From Geothrix sp. (GTDB lineage Bacteria > Acidobacteriota > Holophagae > Holophagales > Holophagaceae): a DNA stretch of 64,000 nucleotides. Location of the stretch: NCBI GenBank assembly GCA_019449415.1, contig JAGRPP010000030.1, positions 1-64,000 on the forward strand, in the 5' to 3' direction. The position numbers and the translations under genes were made by a program. Positions within the stretch are counted from its first letter, which is position 1. Each line of letters opens with the position of its first letter. Shown here piece after piece: positions 67 through 64,000 of the stretch. The notes below the pieces were generated by a model. That model was not told the origin of the DNA, made no database searches, and saw nothing but the letters and a program-made list of their open reading frames with translations.

Positions 67-141
67 GGGGCTATCGTCTAGGGGTCAGGACACCGCCCTT
101 TCACGGCGGTAACACGGGTTCAAATCCCGTTAGCCCTACCA
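67..141 (+). tRNA. tRNA-Glu(UUC), integration target
   Basis: Acceptor strand 67-73 pairs with 131-137 (one G-T pair). Anticodon stem CCGCC/GGCGG encloses a loop with TTC at 100-102, and CCA is encoded at 139-141. The gene remains intact although an element is inserted at its 3' half: the sequence from the first anticodon-loop base (98) to 142 recurs at 12652-12696. Integration therefore rebuilt a complete tRNA, as is usual for tyrosine-recombinase islands. Confidence 0.96.
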
Positions 142-142
142 G
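98..142 (+). repeat. attL: left 45-bp direct repeat, inside tRNA-Glu
   Basis: It matches 12652-12696 at 44 of 45 positions. The only difference is G at 109 (tRNA position 43, last base of the anticodon stem) versus A at 12663. Confidence 0.93.
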
Positions 143-144
143 CC

Positions 145-180
145 AGACGCCTTGAGAAATCAAGGCGTCTTTTGTTTTTT
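145..180 (+). terminator. Rho-independent terminator after tRNA-Glu, carried by the island
   Basis: A perfect 10-bp stem (145-154 with 161-170), loop AGAAAT, is followed by a T-rich tail TTTGTTTTTT. It lies inside the island, so it replaces the chromosomal terminator that now sits beyond attR (12713-12739). The tail and following bases (TTTGTTTTTTATCGA) recur after the other tRNA-Glu at 63503. Confidence 0.9.
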
Positions 181-208
181 ATCGATCAGACCGAGTCGTA
201 AATTCGGG

Positions 209-230
209 TCATACGGAAAATATACGGAAA
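209..230 (+). repeat. Left paired ATACGGAAA motif (candidate integrase arm site)
   Basis: Two copies of ATACGGAAA (211-219 and 222-230), one helical turn apart. The 22-bp block is identical and in the same orientation at 12522-12543, just upstream of the integrase, and nearly identical at 63541-63562 in the second element. Position near both element ends fits arm-type recombinase binding sites. A shared promoter or operator is the alternative. Confidence 0.65.
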
Positions 231-365
231 CCTCACCCTGGGGGTCCCCTGTCGCTAGAGCCCGCTCGCTGAGGTCTCCCCACCAACCGAGCGTTTGGTG
301 CCAGCGATTCGCCACTTTCTGTCGAATGGATTCGGTCATCTTGTCCTCAATGCAATGGAGGGCCC

Positions 366-581
366 ATGGCCAAGATCGGAAGACCCATCACACTCCCGGG
401 CCCCATCGGCGAACTGGCCCACAAGGTAGGGGGAGTAGCTCAGCTCTCAGACTCGCTCGGGGTCCATGTCCGGACCGTCCGTCGATGGGCCCACGGGGGA
501 CCGATTCTTCCCATGCCTCAAAAAATGCTGCTGATGCTCTTCGAGAAACACGAGGTCGATCCGGGTGACTTCATGGGCTGA
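366..581 (+). CDS. Small HTH DNA-binding protein (71 aa), left-end module
   Basis: The start ATG at 366 follows GGAGGG with a short spacer. Residues ~22-43 form a helix-turn-helix (VAQLSDSLGV then HVRTVRRWAHG), as in small Cro/MerR-like proteins. The N-terminus (MAKIGRPI) and the overall sequence closely match the 76-aa protein at 63674-63904, and the upstream regions also match (the stretch containing TTTCTGTCGA and CTTGTCCT). It is the first gene of the island and may control island genes or recombination. The exact role is unknown; the position and conservation in both elements suggest a core function. Confidence 0.8.
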   Translation: MAKIGRPITLPGPIGELAHKVGGVAQLSDSLGVHVRTVRRWAHGGPILPMPQKMLLMLFEKHEVDPGDFMG

Positions 582-783
582 GGCAGCCGCAGTCGATCTC
601 AAGGCTCATGACGCATCCTCAAGAGAAGGATCTGGTTGCGACTGTCGACAGCGACCCACCTCCGGCAAGGGCTTGTGGCGCTGATCACACTCTTGATGAA
701 TTCCGATAATCGAAAGTCACGACTCGCGTCCCTTTTCGATTAAATGGGTCCATCCCAAGGACGGACTAAAGCGGAGCCACCTG

Positions 784-2226
784 ATGGCCACTCATCCATG
801 CCCTGACGAGCAGGGGAACCCGGTCCCCATTTCCTCCCCCAGCACGCCGACCCCACTCTTTGCGTGGCTGGACCCCAGCCAGTCCGCAACGGTGGTGCCG
901 GAGGGGGCGATGCCCCACGAGATGAACGGCGTCCCCCTTCGGCCCTGGCGCAGGCCGCCTACGAGCCGGAGGGAGTGGAACCTCCTAGCCGACGAGATGT
1001 TCCTCGCTGAACGACTGTTCCACCCGCCCAATGGCAAGATTCCGGCCGCGGGCGCCGTGGTTGTCGAGCCCGATGGCCGCGTCTGGCTGGTGTCCCCGAC
1101 CAACCAGCACGGAGGCGGCCAGCAGACCTTTCCGAAGGGCACTGTGTCGGATCTGAGCCTCGCCTCCACCGCGTTGAAGGAGGTCCTCGACAAGACTGGC
1201 CTCCAGATCGAGCTGATGGACCACCTTCTCGATGTCGAGAGGGGCACTTCCTTCACCCGCTACTACCTCGCCCGCCGGATCGGGGGCACCCCTGCGGCCA
1301 TGGGATGGCGGAGCCAGGCGGTCCACTTGGTGCCACCGGAGCTGGTCAAGGAGCGCCTCAACCTGCCGGTCGACCACCCGATCGTCGACAAGCTGATGGA
1401 GGTCTGGGGGGCTTGGGCGGGGCGATACCGGGAACCCGTCGAACGCCGTCCAACTCCAGCACGTCGACAAACACCCAAAAGCCCGCAGGCAGGCACGTCT
1501 ACACAGCACGACGAACTCGTCGCGTTGTGGATCAAGCAAGACGCGGACGCGATTGCCGCCTCCGCCTGTAAGGCCCAGAAGGCGGGCAACGAGGCGGCGG
1601 TCATCAAGCACTGCAAGCACGCCGCGGTTGTCTTCCATCACCAGGGGAAACCGGGCCTCGCCGCGTTCTTTGCAAGGTTCGTCAAGCAGGCACTTGAAAA
1701 GCAGCCTCCGGCAGAGCCCATGACTGCTCCCTCCCTTTTCAGCGAGCCTCTTCCAGCTCCATCTATTTCGGCCATCCGTCGGGGGTACATGCCTCCCGGT
1801 TCGCCGATATTCGAGGTCCAGGCCAAATTCATGGCCTCCTTGATCCTCGACCTGGAGGCCGCCTGCCTTCGCCTCTACGGGGTCGATGAATCCAGGGAGA
1901 TCCCGTGGGATGGCGACCTGACCGCCGCCTCGTGGGAGGTTCCTGAATACAGGCGCTTCATCGAAGGGAGCCCCGCCTGTGGCTTCGTGGTCGACGGGTT
2001 GCCACCTGAAGAATGGCTCGACCTGGAGGACGTCAACCGTCATCCGCGCCAGACCATTCCGATCATGAGGCCCCAGGACATCAGGCTCTTCATCCATACG
2101 GTCCACCGCTCCGAGAAGTGGGCCGACGGCTACGCCAGCCCTGTCCTCGAATCCCTCGCCAGCGGCGCCCTCCAAGCGGTCGCCAAACGTCTGCTTGAGG
2201 ACGACTCCCTCTACGAGCCGCATTGA
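784..2226 (+). CDS. Nudix-like domain protein (480 aa), restriction-linked
   Basis: An N-terminal region of ~70 residues precedes a Nudix-like fold (about residues 85-215). The Nudix box is degenerate. TFPKG leads into it, but the first glutamate is Ser125, the spacing is one residue short, and the REUxEE core reads KEVLDK, so a key metal ligand is Lys137. After a Pro-rich linker (~216-235), a helical segment and an unassigned C-terminal domain (~340-480) follow. The gene lies 153 bases before mod, in the same direction. The degenerate box suggests nucleotide binding rather than hydrolysis, possibly a sensor or accessory factor of the restriction system; this is inference. The start was chosen at ATG 784 because it gives the full conserved length. 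Confidence 0.7.
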   Translation: MATHPCPDEQGNPVPISSPSTPTPLFAWLDPSQSATVVPEGAMPHEMNGVPLRPWRRPPTSRREWNLLADEMFLAERLFHPPNGKIPAAGAVVVEPDGRVWLVSPTNQHGGGQQTFPKGTVSDLSLASTALKEVLDKTGLQIELMDHLLDVERGTSFTRYYLARRIGGTPAAMGWRSQAVHLVPPELVKERLNLPVDHPIVDKLMEVWGAWAGRYREPVERRPTPARRQTPKSPQAGTSTQHDELVALWIKQDADAIAASACKAQKAGNEAAVIKHCKHAAVVFHHQGKPGLAAFFARFVKQALEKQPPAEPMTAPSLFSEPLPAPSISAIRRGYMPPGSPIFEVQAKFMASLILDLEAACLRLYGVDESREIPWDGDLTAASWEVPEYRRFIEGSPACGFVVDGLPPEEWLDLEDVNRHPRQTIPIMRPQDIRLFIHTVHRSEKWADGYASPVLESLASGALQAVAKRLLEDDSLYEPH

Positions 2227-2379
2227 GGCGCATACAGATCGGACGGGAATTTGCACCGTTCATTCGATCGAAGTGGACCCTCAGATCGTGAGGCTTCATC
2301 ATCTTGACCAAGCCCCCTGGAACCCGTGCCCCTCGTTGCCGCGCTGCGAGAACGCGCGGGGAACACAACCGGAGTCGAC

Positions 2380-5300
2380 ATGTCCCTTGAGCACCTGACG
2401 AATGCCCTGATGGATCTGATCCCCGAGGACGGGAGCGGCGTGGGGAACATCGCCTTGAGGCAGCAGCTCGGCAAAAAGCTGGGACGCGAGATCGAGGAGG
2501 GCGAGTACGCCGAGGCCCGTGATGCCCTCGTGTCCCAGGGACGGCTGGTGAAGGGTCAGGGGCGTGGGGGATCGGTCCGTCGTCCCGGGACGGCGCCCGT
2601 GCTGGAGGACCTGGCCGAGGCCCCGACGGTGGCCGTAGAAGCCGCCGCCCGGGCGCCCCGCAAGACGAAGGTCCAGGCCGCAGCCTCCACCCCGATTGCA
2701 GAGGAAGCCGCCATCCGCTCCTACCGCCACACGGACCGCCGGGCCAACAACCCCGAGGTGGGGCTGGTGAAGCCCGAGAACGACCCCGACCAGCCCAAGA
2801 CCGTCTGGTCCTTCGACCCCCACCTGGACCCCGAGCTGCGCTTCGACATCGGCCGTTCCCAGGTCGAGGGCGTCATCGACGAGGCCCTGACCAGCGAAGA
2901 TCCGAAGGTGCTGCGAGAGGCCCTTCTGGAACTGAAGCGTCTCCAGGCCCCCTACCTCATCTGGACGGGCAAGGCCGAGCGCACCAGCTTCGAGGTGGAC
3001 ACGGTGAGCCTGCATGTCCACGAGCGGGTGGACCCCGCCAGCATCCTGGCCGCGGTGCGCAAGGGGCAGACCGCCACGACCGCCCAGAGGGCCGCGGAGT
3101 TCGTGCAGCCCAACCTATTCGAGGCGCCCTGGGAGCAGGTGCCCCTGCGGGAGGCCATCGACTTCTACCGACACGACCGAGGCTGGGCCAACCGGCTGGT
3201 TACCGGCGACAGCCTGCTGGTCATGAACAGCCTGCTCCAGAAAGAGAACATGGCCGGTCAGGTGCAGATGGTCTACATCGATCCGCCCTACGGCATCAAG
3301 TACGGCTCCAACTTCCAGCCATTCGTGAAGAAAGAGAAAGGTGATGCGAGGAAGGTGCAGGATCGGAAAGATGAGGATCTGACCCAGGAGCCCGAAATGA
3401 TCAAAGCTTTTCGGGACACATGGGAATTGGGAATTCATTCATATTTAACTTACCTTCGGGATCGACTATTACTGGCCAAGGAACTGATGCATTCATCTGG
3501 AAGCGTTTTTGTCCAAATTTCAGATGAGAATTTACATCATGTGAAAGAAATTCTTGACGATATTTTTGGTTCAGAAAATTATTTAAATATTATTCCATTT
3601 TCAAAAACAAGTGGAATTACAACTGACTTTTTGGCTAGTAATGTTGATTTTCTCATATGGTATGGAAAAGACAAATCAAAGACAAAATATTTTAATTTAT
3701 TCATTGAAAAAAGCCGAGAATCCGGCACTGCAAATACATATAGCTGGATTGACAGCCCGAACTCTCCACGCAGAGGGATGAGCGCGGCCGAGAAGCGTGG
3801 CGAAGCAGAATTACCGATTAATGCAAAGCTCTATAAACCTGATAATATTACAAGCCAAGGTAATCCAGTAATTCCATGCTGCCACAAGGGTAAAACTTAT
3901 GAACAGGCTTGGAAAATGGATAAAGAAGGAGTTGGATTTCAGAGATTGGCAGTTGCTGGGCGCCTTCATGTTGCGAGTAATACCCTTCAATACGTCAGAT
4001 ATTTATCTGATTTTGCATGCATACCAATTACCCAATTATGGGACGACATGCAAACTGGTAATTTTACCGAAGACAAGACTTACGTTGTTCAGACGGCCGA
4101 AAAGGTCATCCAGCGCTGTCTCCTGATGACTACTGACCCCGGCGACCTCGTAATTGATCCCACCTGTGGCTCCGGCACCACCGCCGTTGTTGCTGAAAAA
4201 TGGGGCCGCCGATGGATCACCTGTGACACCAGCCGCGTGGCCGTGACGCTTGCCAAGGCTCGGCTGATGACGGCGGGCTTCGACTACTACGAGCTGAAGT
4301 ATCCCCACGAGGGGCTGAAGGGCGGCTTCGTCTATGAAACCGTGCCCCACGTCACTCTGAAATCTATCGCCAACAACCCCGACATCGACACGATTTACGA
4401 GGCCCACCGCCCGAAGATCATGGCGGCCCTCGCGGCGCTGAACACAGATCTACGCATGGCCCCGCCTTCCCCCTTCACTGTCGAGGAAGGTGGGCGCAAG
4501 GGGCAGAGGGTGGACTTCAAGGCCCCTGAATCCAAGACCGTCAAGCTACCCTCGGGCGAGGACGCCCCGGCGGGCGCCCTCCTGGAATGGGAGGTGCCCT
4601 TCGACTTGCCGGATGGCTGGCCCGAGGCACCCTTCGCGGCCTTCCACGCCGCCCGCCAGGCCATGCAGAAGGCCATGGACGCCAGCATCGCGGCCCACGC
4701 TGACCAGGAGCAGCTCTTCGACAAGCCACAGGTGGATCGCTCCAAGAAGCGCATCACGGGCCCCTTCACGGTAGAGGCCGTGCCCTCGCCCACGGTGGTC
4801 AGCCTGGACGAGCAGGTAGTGCCGCAGGAGGCCGACCAGGCCATCGCCCGGTCCGGCCACAGCGCCCGGGCGCACGACTGGATGGACGAGCTGCTGAAGA
4901 CCGGCATCCGGGGCAAGGGCGGCCAGATGATGAAGTTCGCCGGTCTGGAGCCCCTGCCCGGGCTCAAGCACCTGCACGCCCTGGGCACCCTCGCCGAGAG
5001 CGGGGACCGGGTGCTGGTGGCCTTCGGGCCGGAGCACGCCGCCATGGAGCAGAAGCAGGTGGCCCTGGCCCTGCACGAGGCCGAGAAGGTGCGCCCCTCG
5101 GCCCGCCACATCGTGTTCTGCGCCTTCGCCTTCGATCCCGAGGCCGCCAAGGACATCGACGAGACGAACTGGGCTGGGGTCAACCTGCTCAAGGTCCAGA
5201 TGAACACGGACCTCCTCACCGAGGACCTCAAGAAGGCCCGCAGCAACAACCAGAGCTTCTGGCTCATGGGCCAGCCCGATGTGGAGCTAAAGAGGCAGCC

Positions 5301-5643
5301 CGACGGGCTCTTCCAGGTGGAGGTCCACGGGTTCGACTACTTCGACACCGTGAAGGGCGAGCTGGTCAGCGGCGGCAAGGGCAAGATCGCCGCCTGGCTG
5401 CTGGACACCGACTACGACAACCGGAGCCTCTACCCCCGCCAGGTCTTCTTCCCCATGGCTGGCGACAAGGAGGGCTGGAACAAGCTGCGCCGGGACATCC
5501 GCGCGGAACTGGACGAGAGCCTGCTGGACGCCTTCCACGGCACCGTGAGCCTGCCCTTCGAGGCGGGGGACCACCGGCAGGTGGCGGTAAAGATCGTGGA
5601 CGACCGGGGCATCGAGTCCCTCAAGATCATCGCCCTGGACTAG
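2380..5643 (+). CDS. mod: Type III-like site-specific DNA methyltransferase (Mod)
   Basis: The predicted product is 1087 aa. ATG 2380 is preferred over an upstream GTG (2326) because GGAG sits 5 bases before it. The N-terminus (~1-70) looks like a winged-helix domain. Motif IV is DPPYG at ~300, followed by the target-recognition region, then the SAM-binding motif DPTCGSGTT at ~592; this order is the beta class of N6-adenine/N4-cytosine methylases. A long C-terminal extension (~700-1087) is of unknown function. The segment ~3400-4090 is strikingly AT-rich compared with the flanks and coincides with the target-recognition region, suggesting replacement by recombination. Res starts 9 bases downstream, so the two are one operon. 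Confidence 0.9.
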   Translation: MSLEHLTNALMDLIPEDGSGVGNIALRQQLGKKLGREIEEGEYAEARDALVSQGRLVKGQGRGGSVRRPGTAPVLEDLAEAPTVAVEAAARAPRKTKVQAAASTPIAEEAAIRSYRHTDRRANNPEVGLVKPENDPDQPKTVWSFDPHLDPELRFDIGRSQVEGVIDEALTSEDPKVLREALLELKRLQAPYLIWTGKAERTSFEVDTVSLHVHERVDPASILAAVRKGQTATTAQRAAEFVQPNLFEAPWEQVPLREAIDFYRHDRGWANRLVTGDSLLVMNSLLQKENMAGQVQMVYIDPPYGIKYGSNFQPFVKKEKGDARKVQDRKDEDLTQEPEMIKAFRDTWELGIHSYLTYLRDRLLLAKELMHSSGSVFVQISDENLHHVKEILDDIFGSENYLNIIPFSKTSGITTDFLASNVDFLIWYGKDKSKTKYFNLFIEKSRESGTANTYSWIDSPNSPRRGMSAAEKRGEAELPINAKLYKPDNITSQGNPVIPCCHKGKTYEQAWKMDKEGVGFQRLAVAGRLHVASNTLQYVRYLSDFACIPITQLWDDMQTGNFTEDKTYVVQTAEKVIQRCLLMTTDPGDLVIDPTCGSGTTAVVAEKWGRRWITCDTSRVAVTLAKARLMTAGFDYYELKYPHEGLKGGFVYETVPHVTLKSIANNPDIDTIYEAHRPKIMAALAALNTDLRMAPPSPFTVEEGGRKGQRVDFKAPESKTVKLPSGEDAPAGALLEWEVPFDLPDGWPEAPFAAFHAARQAMQKAMDASIAAHADQEQLFDKPQVDRSKKRITGPFTVEAVPSPTVVSLDEQVVPQEADQAIARSGHSARAHDWMDELLKTGIRGKGGQMMKFAGLEPLPGLKHLHALGTLAESGDRVLVAFGPEHAAMEQKQVALALHEAEKVRPSARHIVFCAFAFDPEAAKDIDETNWAGVNLLKVQMNTDLLTEDLKKARSNNQSFWLMGQPDVELKRQPDGLFQVEVHGFDYFDTVKGELVSGGKGKIAAWLLDTDYDNRSLYPRQVFFPMAGDKEGWNKLRRDIRAELDESLLDAFHGTVSLPFEAGDHRQVAVKIVDDRGIESLKIIALD

Positions 5644-5652
5644 GACGCGACC

Positions 5653-8514
5653 ATGGCCGCCCCCAAGTCCCTGATCATCAACTCACCCTTCGAGGCCCCC
5701 ACCCGCCACTGGGTGCAGGGCCCGGGCAACGCCCTGTCCCTCGTCCAGGGCCGCAGGCCCGCAGGCTACGAAATCTTCGACACCCGGAACAACACCCGGC
5801 GCACCGCCGAGCTGGCCCTGGTGAACCGCATCCGGGAGCGGGTGGATACCTGGCGGGCCGCGGACTACCCCGGCATCACCACCGTCACCCGGCGCCTCCT
5901 GGAGCACTGGCACGACACGACCGCCCGTCAGTTTCCCCTCTACTTCTGCCAGCTCGAAGCCATCGAGACCCTGATCTGGTGGGTGGAGGCCCCGGCCGAC
6001 TTCAAGCAGGGCATCGCCATCCCCGGCGATGGCGGGGTCTGGGAGCGCTTGTGCAGCAAGATGGCCACCGGCAGCGGCAAGACGACCGTGATGGCCATGC
6101 TCATCACCTGGCAGGTGCTGAACGCCCTCACCTACCCCAAGGAGACCCATCGCTTCAGCAAGACTGTCTTCGTCGTGGCGCCCGGGATCACCGTAAAAGA
6201 CCGCCTCCAGGTGCTCTACCCTGGCCACGACAAGAACGAGTACGACGCCATGGGGCTTTGCCCGGATGAGCCCTCACGGCGCAAGCTCAACCAGGTGGAC
6301 CTCCTGGTGGAGAACTGGCACACCTTGATGCCCCTGAAGCAGACGGATCGCTCGGTGGTGAAGAAAGGGGCCGAGAGCGACAAGGCGTTCGTCCACCGCG
6401 TGCTCGGCAAGCTCGCCACCTGCAAAGACCTGATCGTGATCAACGACGAGGCCCACCACGCCTACCGCATCCCCGCCGATGTGAAAATCAGCAAGAAGCA
6501 GGCGGAGGAGCAGGGCATCGACTTGGACGAGGCCACCCGCTGGATCGAGGGGCTGGACCGCATCCACAAGCAGCTTCGCATCCGCCGCTGTTTCGACCTG
6601 TCGGCCACGCCCTTCGCCCCCACCGGGAAGACCAACACCGAGCAGGGGCTGTTCGACTGGGTGATATCCGACTTCGGCCTGAACGACGCCATTGAGGCCG
6701 GACTGGTGAAGACTCCGCGGATCGTGGTCCGGGATGGGGCCGTGCCTGATGCCCACACCCTCAAGCCGAGGCTCTATCACCTCTATCGGGAAGCTGAGGT
6801 CTCCGAAGACCTGAATCGCAGGGGCGCCCAGCCCCACGAACCCCTGCCGCCCTTGGTGCAGCAGGCGTACACCCTGCTGGGGGCTGATTGGAAGGTCACG
6901 CTGGAGAGCTGGCAGGCCAACGGCCACGCCAGCCCGCCCGTGATGCTCACGGTTTGCAACCGCATCGAGACCGCGGCCCGGATCGAGGACTACTTCAACC
7001 GGGGCGATGCCCACTGGGCCGAGTTGAAGGCACCGAACCGGACCCTCCAGGTGAACAGCAAGGTGCTGGAAAAGGCCGAGGTTGGGGAATCCGTGACGGT
7101 CGACAAGGACTACGGGTCCAGGCTCCAGGCCATCGTCGACACCGCCTCCATCCCCAAGGACCGGAAGGACCGCCTGGCGGAGCTGAAGAAGGATGAACTG
7201 CTCCGGGCCATCGTCGACACCGTCGGCAAGCGGGGCCAGGCCGGGCAGGACCTCCAGAACGTCATCAGCGTGGCCATGCTCTCCGAAGGCTGGGATGCCA
7301 AGAACGTCACCCACATCATGGGCCTCCGCGCCTTCACCAGTCAGCTCCTCTGCGAGCAGGTCATCGGGCGCGGGCTCCGGCGGGTCGGCTACGAGGCCGA
7401 GGATGTGACGGGTGAAGACGGCATCACCCGGCGCCTCTTCAAGCCGGAGTTCGTGAACGTTTTCGGCGTGCCCCTGTCGATCTTCCAGGAGGTCGGCGAA
7501 GGAGGCGAGGCCCCACCCCCACCCACGCACAGCACCCAGGTCGAGGCTCTGGTCGATCGCGGCGAGTTTGAGATCCGGTGGCCGAATGTGCTCCGTGTCG
7601 ACACCGTGATTAAGCCCCACCTGGTCCTGGATTGGTCGAAGGTGGAGCCCATCACCATCGACCCCTCCCAGGTGCCGCTCTCGGCCGATCTAGCCCCTGC
7701 CGTCGGCGGGGCCGCGGACTGGGGGAAGATCCAGACCATCGACCTGGAGAAGATGCCCGAGTCCTTCCGGCAGCAGCGCCTCATCTTCCAGGCCGCCCGC
7801 AAGGCGTTCGACCAGCTCCAGCATGGGTGGAAGGGCAACCGGGAATACCTGGTGGTCCAGCTCATCCGCCTGGTCGAGCAGTTCCTGGCCAACGGCAAGA
7901 TCCAGGTGCCCTCCCTGTTCCACCAGGACCCCCTCCGGAAGCGCATCCTCTTCGCCCTGTCGATGGACCGCATCGTCCAGCACCTCATGCAGTTCATCGA
8001 CCAGCAGAACCAGGAGCGGGTCGAGCCGGTGTTCGACTCCGAATCCCCCATCGGTTCCACGCGCCACATGCGCACCTGGTACACGACGAAGCCCTGCCAG
8101 GCCACCCAGCGCAGCCAGATCAGCCACCTGGTGGCCGACAGCGCCTGGGAGGCCCACGCCGCCAACATTTTCGAGGCGGAGTCCTCAGGGGTGCGCCACC
8201 TCATCGCCGCCTATGCCAAGAACGACCACCTCGGGTTCCAGATCCACTACCTCTGGAACGGGGCCAAGCGGCGCTACGTGCCGGACTTCTTGATCCGCCT
8301 CACCAACGGGAGGACCCTCATCCTGGAGATCAAGGGCGAGAAGTCCGACCAGACCAAGGCCAAGCACGCCTCCCTCGACGCATGGATCCAGGCCGTGAAC
8401 AGCAAGGGAGGATTCGGCGTCTGGTGCTCCGACATCGCCTACGAGCCCAGCGAGATCCAGGACATCATCCTCAAGCACGGCGGGGAGGGACTGGCGGGGT
8501 CGCGGACGATCTAG
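5653..8514 (+). CDS. res: Type III-like restriction helicase-endonuclease (Res)
   Basis: This is a 953-aa SF2 helicase with a nuclease domain. Walker A is GSGKTT (140-145), motif II is DEAHH (~265), motif III is SATPF (~317), and a late helicase motif reads GRGLRR. The C-terminus has a PD-(D/E)xK pattern, PDFL then LILEIKG (~877-893), which would cut DNA after ATP-driven translocation. In type III systems Res works only in complex with Mod, and the tight mod-res spacing fits this. No frameshift or lost catalytic residue is visible, so the system looks intact. Confidence 0.9.
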   Translation: MAAPKSLIINSPFEAPTRHWVQGPGNALSLVQGRRPAGYEIFDTRNNTRRTAELALVNRIRERVDTWRAADYPGITTVTRRLLEHWHDTTARQFPLYFCQLEAIETLIWWVEAPADFKQGIAIPGDGGVWERLCSKMATGSGKTTVMAMLITWQVLNALTYPKETHRFSKTVFVVAPGITVKDRLQVLYPGHDKNEYDAMGLCPDEPSRRKLNQVDLLVENWHTLMPLKQTDRSVVKKGAESDKAFVHRVLGKLATCKDLIVINDEAHHAYRIPADVKISKKQAEEQGIDLDEATRWIEGLDRIHKQLRIRRCFDLSATPFAPTGKTNTEQGLFDWVISDFGLNDAIEAGLVKTPRIVVRDGAVPDAHTLKPRLYHLYREAEVSEDLNRRGAQPHEPLPPLVQQAYTLLGADWKVTLESWQANGHASPPVMLTVCNRIETAARIEDYFNRGDAHWAELKAPNRTLQVNSKVLEKAEVGESVTVDKDYGSRLQAIVDTASIPKDRKDRLAELKKDELLRAIVDTVGKRGQAGQDLQNVISVAMLSEGWDAKNVTHIMGLRAFTSQLLCEQVIGRGLRRVGYEAEDVTGEDGITRRLFKPEFVNVFGVPLSIFQEVGEGGEAPPPPTHSTQVEALVDRGEFEIRWPNVLRVDTVIKPHLVLDWSKVEPITIDPSQVPLSADLAPAVGGAADWGKIQTIDLEKMPESFRQQRLIFQAARKAFDQLQHGWKGNREYLVVQLIRLVEQFLANGKIQVPSLFHQDPLRKRILFALSMDRIVQHLMQFIDQQNQERVEPVFDSESPIGSTRHMRTWYTTKPCQATQRSQISHLVADSAWEAHAANIFEAESSGVRHLIAAYAKNDHLGFQIHYLWNGAKRRYVPDFLIRLTNGRTLILEIKGEKSDQTKAKHASLDAWIQAVNSKGGFGVWCSDIAYEPSEIQDIILKHGGEGLAGSRTI

Positions 8515-8580
8515 TCCCACGCTCCAGAGAATTTCAGTCACCGCGCCCGAAACCAAAAGAGGTTCCATCGCCACCAGGGA

Positions 8581-8931
8581 CTACCAGCCCCTGGTCCGCT
8601 TGGCCTGATTCCACGCCTCCCACTCGGCCTCGGCCAGGGGGCCCTCCACCACCTTCAGGGCGCGGCCCATGTCCCGCGCGCTGACGGCCGCGATCAACGC
8701 GTCCATCAGCCCCTCGAACCGCAGGAACATCATCACCCGCAGGGCCGTGGCCGCACGCTCCCGGGTGGCCTCCATGCCCCTCACGACCGCTTTGTAGGCC
8801 GAGGCCCGGCTTCGATACCCCAGGCGCCGTGCGATGCCGTCGTAGCCCATCCCCGACGCACGAAGGACCAGAGCCTCGGCCTCCCTCAGACGGGCCCGGA
8901 CCAGGCGGGGGGTGGTCGGATTTCGAATCAT
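8581..8931 (-). CDS. Small HTH protein (116 aa)
   Basis: Residues ~25-50 read as a helix-turn-helix (YDGIARRLGY followed by ASAYKAVV), resembling the DNA-binding domain of small terminase-like or regulatory proteins. The rest is helical with no recognised domain. Its start overlaps the end of the rep gene by 4 bases, so it is translationally coupled to rep. A replication or packaging accessory role is possible. No family is assigned. Confidence 0.65.
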   Translation of the reverse strand: MIRNPTTPRLVRARLREAEALVLRASGMGYDGIARRLGYRSRASAYKAVVRGMEATRERAATALRVMMFLRFEGLMDALIAAVSARDMGRALKVVEGPLAEAEWEAWNQAKRTRGW

Positions 8932-9770
8932 TTGGTTGCCCTCTTTGGGTTGCCTGCGTCCACTGTTCCATTCCCATTGTTCGCGGCCTTCAGCGTCGTC
9001 CGGACCCTGGGGTTCTTCATGAGCCCGATCCCGGCGCCATGATGCTTACCCGAGGTGAGCGTCATCACCGCGACCTCGAACACCTCCGCTGGCCACTCGG
9101 GGTCGACCTCGGTCCCCTTGACCGTGTAGTGGAGGCGGGGGCCCCACTCGCCGGGATCGGGCGACATGCAGATGATGGCGTCCGGGAGGATGCATGCATC
9201 CGGGAAGCATTGATGCCAGTGGTCCCAAAGCAACTGGACGCACTCATCGAGATCGGCCTGATTTGAAGCAAACACCATCACATGCAGGTGGGGGTGCCCC
9301 TTCCCATCCATGCCCAATTTGATTTCAAACCACCACACAAGGCCCACGCGGAACCTCAACCCGACCTTGGGGCGCTTCCATGCCTGTCGACGGATCAGGC
9401 CCCGCATGAATTCGAGCATCCGATTCACGCGAATCTCCAGCGCCCCCTGGTGGGTGGCCGTAAGCGTGATGAAGGCTGCCGCACCGGTGGGGCCCATGAT
9501 CTTGATGGCCCGTGGCCGAAACTTCGCGAAGTTGCGCTTCTGGGCCCGGGTCGAGCACTCGGGGCATATTTTCAACTTGCAGTAGAGCCGCTCGGGCTGC
9601 CGCCGCCCATCTTGTCGCGGCCGGGATGATCCGCCGCACCCGAACAGAGCCCGAGTCCAGCGAGCCTTCCAGCCCTTCAGGACTTCGGCCAGAGCTAGGC
9701 GTTTCGCCTTCAACTCCCCCCAATCTGGTGGTCGCGAGGTTGCTTTAGATTCAAGAAGAGGCCGCGCCAC
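8928..9770 (-). CDS. HUH-type rolling-circle replication initiator (Rep)
   Basis: The product is 280 aa. The three rolling-circle Rep motifs appear in order: ITLTATH (101-107), the metal-binding HUH motif HPHLHVMV (159-166), and the catalytic tyrosine motif YTVK (215-218). A CPEC zinc-like pair lies at 69-72. Such enzymes nick at a double-strand origin, remain linked to the 5' phosphate and start rolling-circle replication. Its presence inside an integrated element implies an autonomously replicating circular or single-stranded stage after excision. No origin could be identified with confidence. Confidence 0.82.
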   Translation of the reverse strand: MARPLLESKATSRPPDWGELKAKRLALAEVLKGWKARWTRALFGCGGSSRPRQDGRRQPERLYCKLKICPECSTRAQKRNFAKFRPRAIKIMGPTGAAAFITLTATHQGALEIRVNRMLEFMRGLIRRQAWKRPKVGLRFRVGLVWWFEIKLGMDGKGHPHLHVMVFASNQADLDECVQLLWDHWHQCFPDACILPDAIICMSPDPGEWGPRLHYTVKGTEVDPEWPAEVFEVAVMTLTSGKHHGAGIGLMKNPRVRTTLKAANNGNGTVDAGNPKRATK

Positions 9771-9785
9771 AGCGCACCCCAGGAG

Positions 9786-10010
9786 CTACTTGCTACCTGA
9801 AGCGCCAGACGCCTCCCGAATAGGAAGAGCCGTCAACCATCGCTGGGCCTCGTCCAGAGCGACCAGGCTGCGCCTCCCCGCCTTTCTGACGCGAAGGCGG
9901 CCCTCCGAAATTTCGAGGTAGACCTGAGCCTTGCTCAAGCTCGTCATGGTCGCGAACTCCTCGATGGAGTAGCTCAGCTTGGGAAGGGGCTCGGCGTGTG
10001 GCATGTTCAC
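9786..10010 (-). CDS. Excisionase-like HTH protein (74 aa)
   Basis: Residues ~13-60 match the small MerR/Xis-type winged helix: SIEEFATMTSL, a turn, then AQVYLEISEGRL and a basic KAGRRSLVALDEAQRWL. These proteins bend att DNA and steer integrase toward excision, or act as small regulators. It lies between rep and the 328-aa gene on the same strand as the integrase, as expected for Xis. A plain transcription regulator (AlpA-like) is the alternative. Confidence 0.7.
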   Translation of the reverse strand: MNMPHAEPLPKLSYSIEEFATMTSLSKAQVYLEISEGRLRVRKAGRRSLVALDEAQRWLTALPIREASGASGSK

Positions 10011-10104
10011 CTCGGATAGGTCCGTATGGACAGACCAAGGTTCAGGGGCTCAAGGCCCTGTCGGCAGCCCCCGCACCCCTCACAATCTCGAAGGGGGTGC
10101 GCGC

Positions 10105-11091
10105 CTATTTCTCCTTAGATCGAGTAGTCGTCTTGCTTTTCGAGGATTTCTTGCGCGCCCCCGACGTGCTTTCCCCCTGCCCTCTTCGGTTCGGTAGTTT
10201 GATGCCGGCCAACCCTTGCAGAACCAACTCCCGCTTCGCCTCCGGGACGCGAGCGAGTGGAGTCCCCACGCAGGACCCAACCATGCGCCACCAGCGCCTG
10301 GCCCGGGTGGAGTGGTCTCTGCCCCAGGACGAGGGCACGTCCTCGTTGGTCGCGGCTTCCTGAAGTAGACGAGCTACATCTGTCAGGCGGGCCAGTTTCT
10401 TCATCGGGCCAAGGATCCGGGTGCAGTCCTCGAACAGATCCAAGTCCGGCGTCCGCCCGGTCCTCGCCTGACGAATGGACTTGGCCCCCATGACGTCGGG
10501 GTCGGCCATCTCTGCCTCGATACCATCGACAGCCAGCTTGGCCAGTGTCTCCAGTGCGGCCAGTCGCCGGACGAGGCCATTCGGAGATTTGCGGCTATCT
10601 GGAGGGCGCGCTTCGAAGACTTCCCGATCCCACCCCAACGGCCTGTCTAGGCCGCCTAGACCTTGGCGCTCGACCAGACGGGTCAGTTCCTCCCGCCCCT
10701 CCGGGATCTCGCCGAGACGATCGAGGGCCGCTGGAGGGGCATGTCTCAACAACCCCAACAGGTGCGCTGTCGCAGCGCCAATCCCCGAAAGCGCCCCACG
10801 CACTTCCCTGTATCTCCCCAGCCGTGCCTCATCTTCCAGGCGTTCGAGATGCTGGTCCAGTGCCTCCCGTAGGCGAATTCGCAGAGCAACTTGGGCCTCA
10901 GTCGTGGCCTTGTCCTTCAGCACCATCGAGACGGCCTTCTCTACGAGAGAGTCTTGTCGACAGAATTCGTCTTCCCGGGCAACCGCAGCCTCCGGATTCA
11001 TGGGGATGGTCTTGAGGATGCGGAGCGCCTTCGTGCCGGGCCAACGGCCTTTCACCTGTCCCTTCGGTTTATTCATCAGGCTCTCCGGCAT
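10105..11091 (-). CDS. Unknown island protein (328 aa) with basic tail
   Basis: No family is recognised. The protein is mostly helical and charged, with no signal peptide or membrane segment. The last ~30 residues are rich in Ser, Lys and Arg, suggesting nucleic-acid contact. It lies between the excisionase-like gene and the integrase, all on the - strand, so it belongs to the core mobility or replication module rather than the cargo. An internal start (M at residue 6) is possible. Confidence 0.5.
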   Translation of the reverse strand: MPESLMNKPKGQVKGRWPGTKALRILKTIPMNPEAAVAREDEFCRQDSLVEKAVSMVLKDKATTEAQVALRIRLREALDQHLERLEDEARLGRYREVRGALSGIGAATAHLLGLLRHAPPAALDRLGEIPEGREELTRLVERQGLGGLDRPLGWDREVFEARPPDSRKSPNGLVRRLAALETLAKLAVDGIEAEMADPDVMGAKSIRQARTGRTPDLDLFEDCTRILGPMKKLARLTDVARLLQEAATNEDVPSSWGRDHSTRARRWWRMVGSCVGTPLARVPEAKRELVLQGLAGIKLPNRRGQGESTSGARKKSSKSKTTTRSKEK

Positions 11092-11120
11092 CTGTTATGG
11101 CCGAAATTCATGCACGATCA

Positions 11121-12506
11121 TCAAGCCAATTTGGACTTGCCCTTCAACGGTGCGACGCCATCCGGCTCAAAGATGCCCAACTCCGGCGAGAGTTTGGCGA
11201 TAGCGTCCGCCAGGGCCGAGGGGGCGAGGTGCCCATAATGCTTCTCAACCATGCGAGTGTCTGAGTGGCCGAGTTGGGCGGCGACATAGGCCAGGGGCAC
11301 ACCTGCGTTCACGAGGAACGAGGCGTAGGTATGCCTCAGTTCATGGAAGGTCATCGGCTCCAGCTTGGCCTTCTTGCAGGCGGCGTTCATGAACCGGAAC
11401 TGCTCGGACTTGGTCCAGGCCCGGATGACTTTCCCGGCCCGCCAGTTCCGGGTGGCGTATGCCTCCCGGAGGAACATCGGCTCATCGGTCGGGCGTCCCG
11501 CCGTCAAGGACTCGAAGAAGGCGCGACCCTCAGCGGTCAGGACGATATGCCTGGACTTGCCGCCATCCCGCCCTTTCCCCCTGAGGATGAAGATGGTGCC
11601 CTTCCCGCCGGCTCCCTCCGGGCTGAAATCCTTAACGAGGAGGGTGCCCAACTCCCCGTAGCGGGCTCCCGTGAACAGGGCCCCTCGCACCAGCCGACGG
11701 AAATCCTCCGGACAGGCATTCACCAAGCGCTGGACCTCCAAGGTGTTCAAGAATCGGTCCCGAGCCCTATCGACCCCTTTGAAGGGTTTGGCCTCCCGCC
11801 AGGCGTCACCTGAGGCCAAGGCCCGCCCCCGCCGTTTGGCGTGGTTCAGCGCGGCCTTGAGGATGGTGAGAACGCGATTTGAAGATGCCTTACGAGCGCG
11901 CTCGGCCTCGCTCGAGAGAGGTGCAGGAGGGGCCTGCTCCATTTTCTTGACCTTCTTCGGCACGGGCCGAGGCCGGGCGCTCTGGCGGACCTTGGCGGCC
12001 GATTTCGCCAATGCATGGTGCCACTTCTCAATTCGGGCCTGGGTGAGCTTCGCGACCTCCACTTCTCCCAGCTCGGGCAGGATGTGAAGCCTGGCCGCGC
12101 ACTCCATGCGATCCACGCGCCTCAACCCTCGACGATCACAGTCCTTCAGGTAATCGACTAGGGCATCGGCCACGGTATAAGGGCCCGTGCGAACCTCCTC
12201 CCCCACGGCCAAGGTGAGGGCCACCCCGAACCACTCCCGTGCCTTGGTCTGGGCCTGGGCAAAACTCAGCACTGCCACCCCATCCGGGTCCGCATGGTCG
12301 TCTGCGGCCCCCAAGCTCTTGTAGAGCTGCTTCTGCGGATGATCCGGCAGGTAGAGCCGGGCAATCCAGGTTCCACCCTTGGCCCCGCGCCGATACCCCA
12401 GGGCCCGACCTGTCTCCAGGGTCAGCCAGTAGGGCTCACGACGCGCCCCCAGCTTGGCCCGCTGGGTCCTGTTCACGATCCGGCCATCATGCTTAACCTG
12501 GGCCAT
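11121..12506 (-). CDS. int: Tyrosine site-specific integrase (461 aa)
   Basis: The catalytic set is complete: Arg282 in TGARYGEL, His388-x-x-Arg391 in HELRH, His414 in QLGHSD and nucleophile Tyr424 in EKHYGH. The N-terminal ~200 residues hold arm-binding and core-binding domains with an Arg/Lys/Pro-rich linker at ~172-205. ATG 12506 has GGAGG just upstream. The gene is the last of the island, directly inside attR, and the paired ATACGGAAA motif lies 16-37 bases upstream of the start. The enzyme presumably recombines attP with the 3' half of tRNA-Glu. Confidence 0.93.
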   Translation of the reverse strand: MAQVKHDGRIVNRTQRAKLGARREPYWLTLETGRALGYRRGAKGGTWIARLYLPDHPQKQLYKSLGAADDHADPDGVAVLSFAQAQTKAREWFGVALTLAVGEEVRTGPYTVADALVDYLKDCDRRGLRRVDRMECAARLHILPELGEVEVAKLTQARIEKWHHALAKSAAKVRQSARPRPVPKKVKKMEQAPPAPLSSEAERARKASSNRVLTILKAALNHAKRRGRALASGDAWREAKPFKGVDRARDRFLNTLEVQRLVNACPEDFRRLVRGALFTGARYGELGTLLVKDFSPEGAGGKGTIFILRGKGRDGGKSRHIVLTAEGRAFFESLTAGRPTDEPMFLREAYATRNWRAGKVIRAWTKSEQFRFMNAACKKAKLEPMTFHELRHTYASFLVNAGVPLAYVAAQLGHSDTRMVEKHYGHLAPSALADAIAKLSPELGIFEPDGVAPLKGKSKLA

Positions 12507-12521
12507 CCCCCGCCTCCAGTT

Positions 12522-12543
12522 TCATACGGAAAATATACGGAAA
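12522..12543 (+). repeat. Right paired ATACGGAAA motif
   Basis: This 22-bp block is identical to 209-230, with repeats at 12524-12532 and 12535-12543. It sits directly upstream of the integrase, so binding here could also repress int. Either arm-site or operator use would fit. Confidence 0.65.
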
Positions 12544-12651
12544 ACACCCCCCTGGACGCTAGTGAATCTAGGTTGATCATGAAACCATGTTTTTCAATGA
12601 TTTCTGACAGTTGAGATTCCAGGCAACTCGACCAAACAATCTGAATTTTTG

Positions 12652-12696
12652 CTTTCACGGCGATAACACGGGTTCAAATCCCGTTAGCCCTACCAG
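12652..12696 (+). repeat. attR: right copy of the tRNA-Glu 3' half
   Basis: It matches 98-142 except A at 12663 for G at 109. It has no 5' tRNA half and is therefore not a tRNA gene. The A is on the element side of the crossover, so the circular element's attP presumably carries A, and strand exchange lies 3' of this base. Confidence 0.92.
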
Positions 12697-12712
12697 AGCA
12701 ATAACAGCACTT

Positions 12713-12739
12713 AGAAGCCGGAGCGACCCTCCAGCTTCT
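12713..12739 (+). terminator. Displaced original tRNA-Glu terminator
   Basis: Stem AGAAGC/GCTTCT plus GGA/TCC with one mismatch, followed by TCTTTATTT. It lies 17 bases beyond attR at the position the tRNA terminator would occupy without the island. Confidence 0.7.
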
Positions 12740-13198
12740 TCTTTATTTATGTGCTGCCTCACATTTTTGCCTCACAAATGGTTAAACGGGCGTCCCCAAG
12801 CGAAGACACGGATGCCCGTGGCGGCTCTATCTCAGGCCTCCGACCCATCGCAGACCCTTGTCTGGCCTGTATCTTGGCGATTCGAGCGATTCTCAGGACC
12901 GTCTCCATGTTCCCAGAGCTTCTTTCTGGATTCGAATAGTGGCGGGAATCCTGTCGGTAGTTCGCTGACTGGGCGGATCTGCACCATCTTGGGCGACTGA
13001 ATTCCAGGCACTCCCGACCAGGCGATTCCTGTTCGGAACTCGACATGCCCCCACTGCTTCCAGTCATTCCCTGGGTGAAGTTGCCCGTATCGGCTGATTG
13101 CTACCTGCACGGAAGACCTGGGGCATCCCACGGACATTTTCTGTCCAAACCGGTGTGGCAGGATGGTCTGGAACCAAGTCTGTCCTTGAGATGCCTGC
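12740..13198. other. Gene-free scar between attR and addB
   Basis: About 460 bases with no convincing gene and a lower GC content than the neighbours. Short open frames on both strands have no recognisable domain and no good ribosome-binding site. It contains a direct repeat TGCCTCACA at 12755-12763 and 12768-12776. It may be a decayed trace of an earlier insertion at the same tRNA. The addB promoter should also lie here, but no clear one is visible. Confidence 0.5.
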
Positions 13199-63398: not shown

Positions 63399-63473
63399 GG
63401 TCCCATCGTATAGCGGTTAGTACACCGCCCTCTCACGGCGGGAACAGGGGTTCGATTCCCCTTGGGACTACCA
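63399..63473 (+). tRNA. tRNA-Glu(CUC), second integration target
   Basis: Acceptor 63399-63405 pairs with 63463-63469. Anticodon CTC at 63432-63434 and encoded CCA at 63471-63473. The 3' part (63433-63473) is repeated, with two changes, at 63939-63977. It lies 17 bases after tRNA-Gln. Confidence 0.95.
63433..63473 (+). repeat. Left repeat of the miniature element
   Basis: The 3' part of tRNA-Glu(CUC). It matches 63939-63977 except for G/A at tRNA position 43 (63441 vs 63947) and one missing G in the copy. Confidence 0.85.
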
Positions 63474-63477
63474 GCAA

Positions 63478-63508
63478 GCCCCCTAGAGAAATCTAGGGGG
63501 CCTTTGTT
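63478..63508 (+). terminator. Terminator after tRNA-Glu(CUC), element-borne
   Basis: Perfect 10-bp stem GCCCCCTAGA/TCTAGGGGGC with a 4-base loop GAAA and tail CTTTGTTTTTT. Loop (GAGAAATC in context) and tail resemble the terminator at 145-180. Confidence 0.9.
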
Positions 63509-63540
63509 TTTTATCGACCCTCTTCGAGATGCGCTGAGGG

Positions 63541-63562
63541 TAATACGGGAAATATACGGAAA
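63541..63562 (+). repeat. Paired ATACGGAAA-like motif of the miniature element
   Basis: ATACGGGAA at 63543-63551 and ATACGGAAA at 63554-63562, in the same orientation and spacing as at 209-230. Confidence 0.65.
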
Positions 63563-63673
63563 GTCCGTCGAGGACTCTGGTTCGCCCTTGGTGCTCCACG
63601 GGGTGGATCTCCGGGGACTCGCCAATTTTTGTCGATTGGTTTCGGCCACCTTGTCCTTCAGCAAGGAGGCCCC

Positions 63674-63904
63674 ATGGCAAAGATCGGCAGACCCATCGCC
63701 CTTCCCGGCCCACTCGGTGATCTGGCCCACAAGCTGGGCGGCGTTGGCCCCCTGGCGGAAGAGGTCGGCGTCAGCGCCCGGACGGTTCGTCGTTGGGCCC
63801 ACGGAGACCCAATGCTCCCGATGGCCCGCAAGGTGCTCACGCGACTCTTCAAGAAGCATGGCGTGAACTCAAGCTGCCTTTTCGATCCCGATCCTGAACC
63901 CTGA
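63674..63904 (+). CDS. Small HTH protein (76 aa), paralogue of 366-581
   Basis: ATG 63674 follows AAGGAGG. It aligns almost end to end with the 71-aa protein of the large island: MAKIGRPI start, helix-turn-helix VGPLAEEVGV then SARTVRRWAHGD. The C-terminal ~10 residues differ. As the only gene in the miniature element, it is probably the core regulator of this element family. Confidence 0.8.
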   Translation: MAKIGRPIALPGPLGDLAHKLGGVGPLAEEVGVSARTVRRWAHGDPMLPMARKVLTRLFKKHGVNSSCLFDPDPEP

Positions 63905-63938
63905 CCCCGGAGCCCGGCTCCAGGGAGCAGGACCGCGG

Positions 63939-63977
63939 TCACGGCGAGAACAGGGGTTCGATTCCCCTTGGACTACC
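63939..63977 (+). repeat. Degenerate right copy of the tRNA-Glu(CUC) 3' end
   Basis: Matches 63433-63473 with one substitution (A for G at 63947) and one deleted G in the acceptor strand. Such decay suggests an old insertion. Confidence 0.8.
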
Positions 63978-64000
63978 AAACACGGCCCGGCTCACGCCGG

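Follow-up and report, generated by a model that had tools for sequence, protein, structure and literature searches.

Island remnants that have kept attL and attR while lacking genes for integration or transfer are known as cis-mobilizable elements (CIMEs; PMC5704250); in Dehalococcoides, ssrA islands devoid of integration modules have been described (PMC3146451). A comparable element of about 0.55 kb was found close to the end of the window, as the whole 64,000-nt stretch analysed here is called, which belongs to a 72.5-kb contig (C15) of a 2.15-Mb, 64%-complete genome. By its relatives, this genome falls in a family of the Acidobacteriota, probably the Holophagaceae (Geothrix). This mini element resembles a CIME in being flanked by att sites, in lacking an integrase, in having a full-island relative and in lying at a tRNA gene. 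It differs in its size, in its single gene and in a missing right arm-type site.

The mini element carries one gene, which encodes a small helix-turn-helix (HTH) protein, and a homologue of this gene opens a 12.6-kb island at the other end of the window. The closest described regulators are the Cro, Aca (anti-CRISPR-associated) and C-protein autoregulators, with which the protein shares a lambda-repressor-type fold of about 70 aa, a putative operator proximal to the promoter and mobile defence or counter-defence neighbours. It differs from them in belonging to no named sequence family, in having an operator that is predicted, and in its partners, which are HicAB, AbiEii, NUDIX/R-M and BRO proteins. 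On balance, we think it probable that the HTH protein is a Cro/Aca-like autoregulator of mobile cargo or defence genes and that the mini element represents a remnant of the CIME type.

The 12.6-kb island (98-12696) lies downstream of a tRNA-Glu(TTC) gene, and direct repeats of the 3′ part of this tRNA bound it. Its features are the following.

67-141, forward strand: tRNA-Glu(TTC), the 3′ part of which is attL
98-142, forward strand: attL of the 12.6-kb island
145-170, forward strand: island-borne intrinsic terminator, right after tRNA-Glu(TTC)
211-230, forward strand: left-side tandem site with an 11-bp period, ATACGGAAAATATACGGAAA, likely of integrase arm-type; islands of the genus have other tandem repeats at the same position
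309-347, forward strand: conserved 39-nt promoter-proximal block, a putative operator, with a CGAAT-GG-ATTCG inverted repeat
366-581, forward strand: 71-aa HTH protein of Cro-like type, leftmost gene in the island
784-2226, forward strand: 480-aa NUDIX-domain protein
2380-5643, forward strand: type III R-M methyltransferase (mod), with an uncertain start at 2326 or 2380
5653-8514, forward strand: type III R-M restriction subunit (res), with a ResIII helicase domain
8940-9770, reverse strand: rolling-circle type Rep (Rep_1)
9786-10004, reverse strand: small HTH_17/AlpA/Cox-like protein, the likelier excisionase
11121-12506, reverse strand: tyrosine integrase
12524-12543, forward strand: second copy of the tandem arm-type site, on the right side
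12652-12696, forward strand: attR of the 12.6-kb island, which is absent from the same tRNA-Glu(TTC) locus in genome G002

Between the HTH and NUDIX genes of this island no intrinsic terminator was found, and their co-transcription is uncertain because the gap between them measures 202 nt.

The mini element (about 63430-63978) is organized in the same way behind a tRNA-Glu(CTC) gene, with direct repeats at about 63430-63474 and at 63936-63978.

63399-63473, forward strand: tRNA-Glu(CTC), the 3′ part of which is the mini attL
63478-63501, forward strand: terminator, with compensated stem changes relative to the big island
63543-63562, forward strand: tandem site ATACGGGAAATATACGGAAA
63619-63657, forward strand: mini copy of the 39-nt block
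63674-63904, forward strand: 76-aa HTH protein, the sole gene, identified as an ORF and by BLAST
63936-63978, forward strand: mini attR, lacking 1 nt of attL and with a G replaced by A

That the mini element was truly inserted follows from G002, where the site is empty and tRNA-Glu(CTC) is joined straight to the downstream flank. As in a CIME, the element is bounded by the att sites of a site-specific island, attL on one side and attR on the other, and genes for integration or transfer are missing. The right-side copy of the tandem site is absent from it, and its HTH ORF, which stops 31 bp before attR, is apparently complete, its end coinciding in length with that of a homologue in genome G068. 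Its left end is homologous to that of the big island, and its parent element was not found. The best reading of the mini element is that of a CIME-like remnant, derived from a related island, that kept this regulator only. In the presumed deletion, everything downstream of the HTH stop codon as far as attR would have been lost, integrase and right arm-type site included, and the first gene with its promoter would have been spared together with attL and the left arm-type site; the element may also be a one-gene element that was never longer than now. Read as a remnant, it shows to what small size an att-flanked island can be reduced. Both attRs carry a G-to-A change relative to their own tRNA (window positions 12662 and 63946), at the same anticodon-stem base, and this common change may mark attP and the position of the crossover.

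When the 71- and 76-aa proteins were compared by BLAST, they were 66% identical over 65 residues (E 2e-26), and a BLAST of the genome gave no further good match to the pair. Both genes also have in common, in their 5′ flanks, the tRNA terminator hairpin, a tandem ATACGGRAAAT site and the 39-nt block, so the original prediction of close homologues with homologous 5′ flanks was borne out, as was its statement that this is the only gene shared by both elements, a statement that holds since one gene is all that fits into the mini element. The tandem site (ATACGGRAAATATACGGAAA) was found three times in the window, against zero expected by chance, at both ends of the big island and at the left end only of the mini element; these repeats, with an 11-bp period, are likely integrase arm-type sites. 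The terminator stems of the two elements still pair through compensated changes. The 39-nt block is identical at 33 of 39 positions (85%), compared with 27 of 65 third codon positions (42%; P ~4e-8), and the inverted repeat of the big copy is only partly retained in the mini copy.

Between the two genes, dN was 0.22 and dS 1.56, giving a dN/dS of 0.14 (bootstrap 0.06-0.31), with the NG86 and LWL85 methods in agreement. Judging by this ratio, by the conservation of the block and by the compensated terminator changes, the HTH protein, its promoter block and the terminator have been under selection since the copies diverged. The original argument that retention of the gene alone suggests selection could be sustained in part: purifying selection between the copies is evident, but it may predate the mini element, and the position of the gene next to attL would suffice, since a deletion derivative would retain it by position. 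An unlikely alternative is that the mini element and its HTH gene are leftovers of an old deletion, under no selection, and that the protein is now functionless. The mini attR is already decaying, through its deletion and its G-to-A change; a neutral simulation left the mini ORF intact with a chance of about 35% at 5% divergence, roughly the decay of attR; left-end scars are common at this hot spot, and a homologue in G009 is truncated. Set against this are the ORF, the start signals and the promoter block, none of which is disrupted and all of which show constraint between the copies, although here too the constraint may be older than the deletion.

The AF2 model of the 71-aa protein (pLDDT 84) has four helices. 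The top Foldseek matches were phage Cro proteins, none of them below an E of 0.001, and VIA-align, which merely re-orders the Foldseek list, gave Z values of 5-6.8 against Xfaso1 Cro, CI, Aca7, C.AhdI and YdaS. The model thus has a lambda-repressor-like helical DNA-binding fold of the Cro/CI type, with Z up to 6.8, in a structure search by which no family outside this fold is excluded. Sequence profiles returned sub-threshold matches only. YdaS scored 13.4 and 19.3 bits against a cut-off of 30, and the best named sequence match, NCBIfam NF046037 (carph-isopro), reached an E of 2e-7 over 33 residues with the G068 copy, all HTH copies remaining below its curated cut-off (≤31 vs 38 bits). Membership among the controller (C) proteins of R-M systems was also considered and discarded, the adjoining R-M system being type III and not type II, and lying beyond the NUDIX gene.

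Homologues were searched for in the genus, the family and the phylum, and 11 members were obtained including the 71- and 76-aa pair; all those at useful E-values were confined to one bacterial family (Holophagaceae), so that what follows describes a small sample. Searches of IMG/VR and of phages and plasmids revealed no homologues, and of two scans of genome contigs, the first had no match and the second matched only JAJYMZ010000061.1. Adjacency to a tRNA att site was restricted to the pair. Two findings had been named in advance as counting against the original prediction: neutral decay, which was seen in one homologue (the truncated G009 copy) beside the low dN/dS of the pair, and frequent occurrence apart from att repeats, which is what the other nine homologues show.

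The partners of the homologues are not integration genes; they are HicAB, AbiEii, a NUDIX protein near restriction genes, and the passengers of IS1595-type transposons. In G068, the HTH domain forms the C-terminal part of a NUDIX fusion protein, the first 215 residues of which are 57% identical to the N-terminus of the window NUDIX protein, and the island that carries the fusion has an integrase at tmRNA and type I R-M genes. The fusion gene (L086:8952-11018) contains an internal start candidate (GGAG, 6 nt, TTG), from which a free HTH protein could also be produced, and a Rep upstream of it is 30% identical to the island Rep. In G343 and G438, the HTH gene flanks an AbiEii toxin gene and a gene of 98-99 aa, and the truncated copy in G009 follows the same 99-aa gene. 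In G335, HicA and HicB are followed by the HTH gene in tight order (L120, reverse strand, 8090-8832); this HicB is without a DNA-binding domain of its own, and the three genes possibly form a three-part toxin-antitoxin operon. In G014 and G388, the HTH gene lies within IS1595-type transposons with BRO-N or nucleotidyltransferase-like passengers. Transposons of this family with terminal inverted repeats TGATTATCGGCGACC, carrying the HTH gene and passengers, were located at L008:248-2721 and L009:1141-3626 and in L118 and L119. A promoter palindrome, TAGGACC-N3-GGTCCTA, which is a candidate operator, is present in four transposon-type homologues, with a covarying AAGACC/GGTCTT form in G388.

Taken with these partners, the HTH protein is most likely a self-regulating cargo switch rather than a gene for island control or immunity. 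A dimer would bind the operator over its own promoter and would set the expression of the accompanying cargo, which in the big island would be the NUDIX and type III R-M genes (NUDIX-mod-res). The family would then act as a portable regulatory module, paired with varied toxin-antitoxin, defence or passenger genes and standing outside the island integration machinery. Counting against a cargo switch, the HTH gene lies upstream of its partner at some loci and downstream at others. What the sample does present is a narrow family of detached proteins, predicted to bind operators, whose partners are unrelated kinds of mobile cargo (HicAB, AbiEii, NUDIX/R-M, transposon passengers); in one case, regulator and cargo have been fused.

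The original prediction proposed, as examples, control of the element, through expression of int, or immunity to incoming related islands, in the manner of a phage repressor or of a resident R-M controller protein, as the reason for which the mini element was kept. This we regard as distinctly unlikely, and control through int was rejected as the main reading, as the only copies of the 39-nt block in the window are those at the two HTH promoters and none is near int or rep. Other islands of the hot spot are without the HTH gene, and the homologues accompany cargo, not integrases. The idea retains some room because the recognition helices and the putative operators are held in common: with RTVRRWAHG identical in both proteins and the operator-like blocks nearly so, each protein could act on the promoter of the other, both protein and promoter are constrained, and the arm-type site common to the two elements makes the same integrase specificity likely. 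A resident C regulator can reportedly exclude incoming R-M genes, a behaviour that Nakayama and Kobayashi are said to have described in 1998 as 'apoptotic mutual exclusion'; to our knowledge, type III R-M systems make no use of C proteins, which speaks against a parallel here.

It is highly improbable that the HTH protein is an excisionase (recombination directionality factor) and the mini element movable by an integrase acting in trans. A small HTH protein encoded beside attL and an arm-type site would fit that role, and there are weak matches to excisionase profiles, but every one is under its cut-off (HTH_17, 22.6 vs 27; TIGR01764, 14.5 vs 28.8; Exc, 13.3 vs 23 bits), and the fold matches Cro/CI rather than Xis. 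The AlpA/Cox-like protein near int is the better candidate, the HTH promoter carries a conserved block, and homologues are found where this integrase is absent, alongside HicAB or AbiEii or inside IS1595-type transposons; the excisionase reading was therefore rejected. About as improbable is a mini element selected as a single-gene exclusion element, the regulator of which would recognise the operator of incoming islands and upset the establishment of their NUDIX/type III R-M genes, protecting the cell or the tRNA-Glu site; cross-regulation of incoming islands by the mini HTH protein is possible from the shared motifs, and if the lone regulator does affect them, such remnants would be candidate exclusion elements.

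In many relatives, tRNA-Glu(CTC) holds other insertions, each starting with a terminator hairpin and usually with an 11-bp-period tandem repeat. Occupants of the same tRNA-Glu sites in G020, G060 and G029 have other first genes, and the HTH gene was therefore rejected as a core left-end gene of all islands. The G029 occupant (L140:14180-17109, minus strand) is a 2.8-kb att-flanked, integrase-less insert in tRNA-Glu(CTC) encoding a DNA methylase, a restriction-like protein without a Pfam match and a C-protein-like HTH; with this R-M cassette, integrase-less remnants of the kind recur. In G060, a genome of the same species, tRNA-Glu(CTC) holds a different remnant, with no attR recognisable within about 20 kb.

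Just past the attR of the big island, at window positions 12697-12785, a terminator is accompanied by another tandem repeat, TGCCTCACATTTTTGCCTCAC; this stretch resembles a scar from the left end of an island since lost, and in G002 and G060 a different scar occupies the position. Within the host sequence flanking tRNA-Glu(CTC), the tRNA 3′ end recurs in inverted orientation, CCCAAGGGGAATCGAA (L007, about 1015-1035; also in L019, L035 and L135), and this copy belongs to a dispersed repeat of about 220 nt that ends in another tRNA 3′ end.
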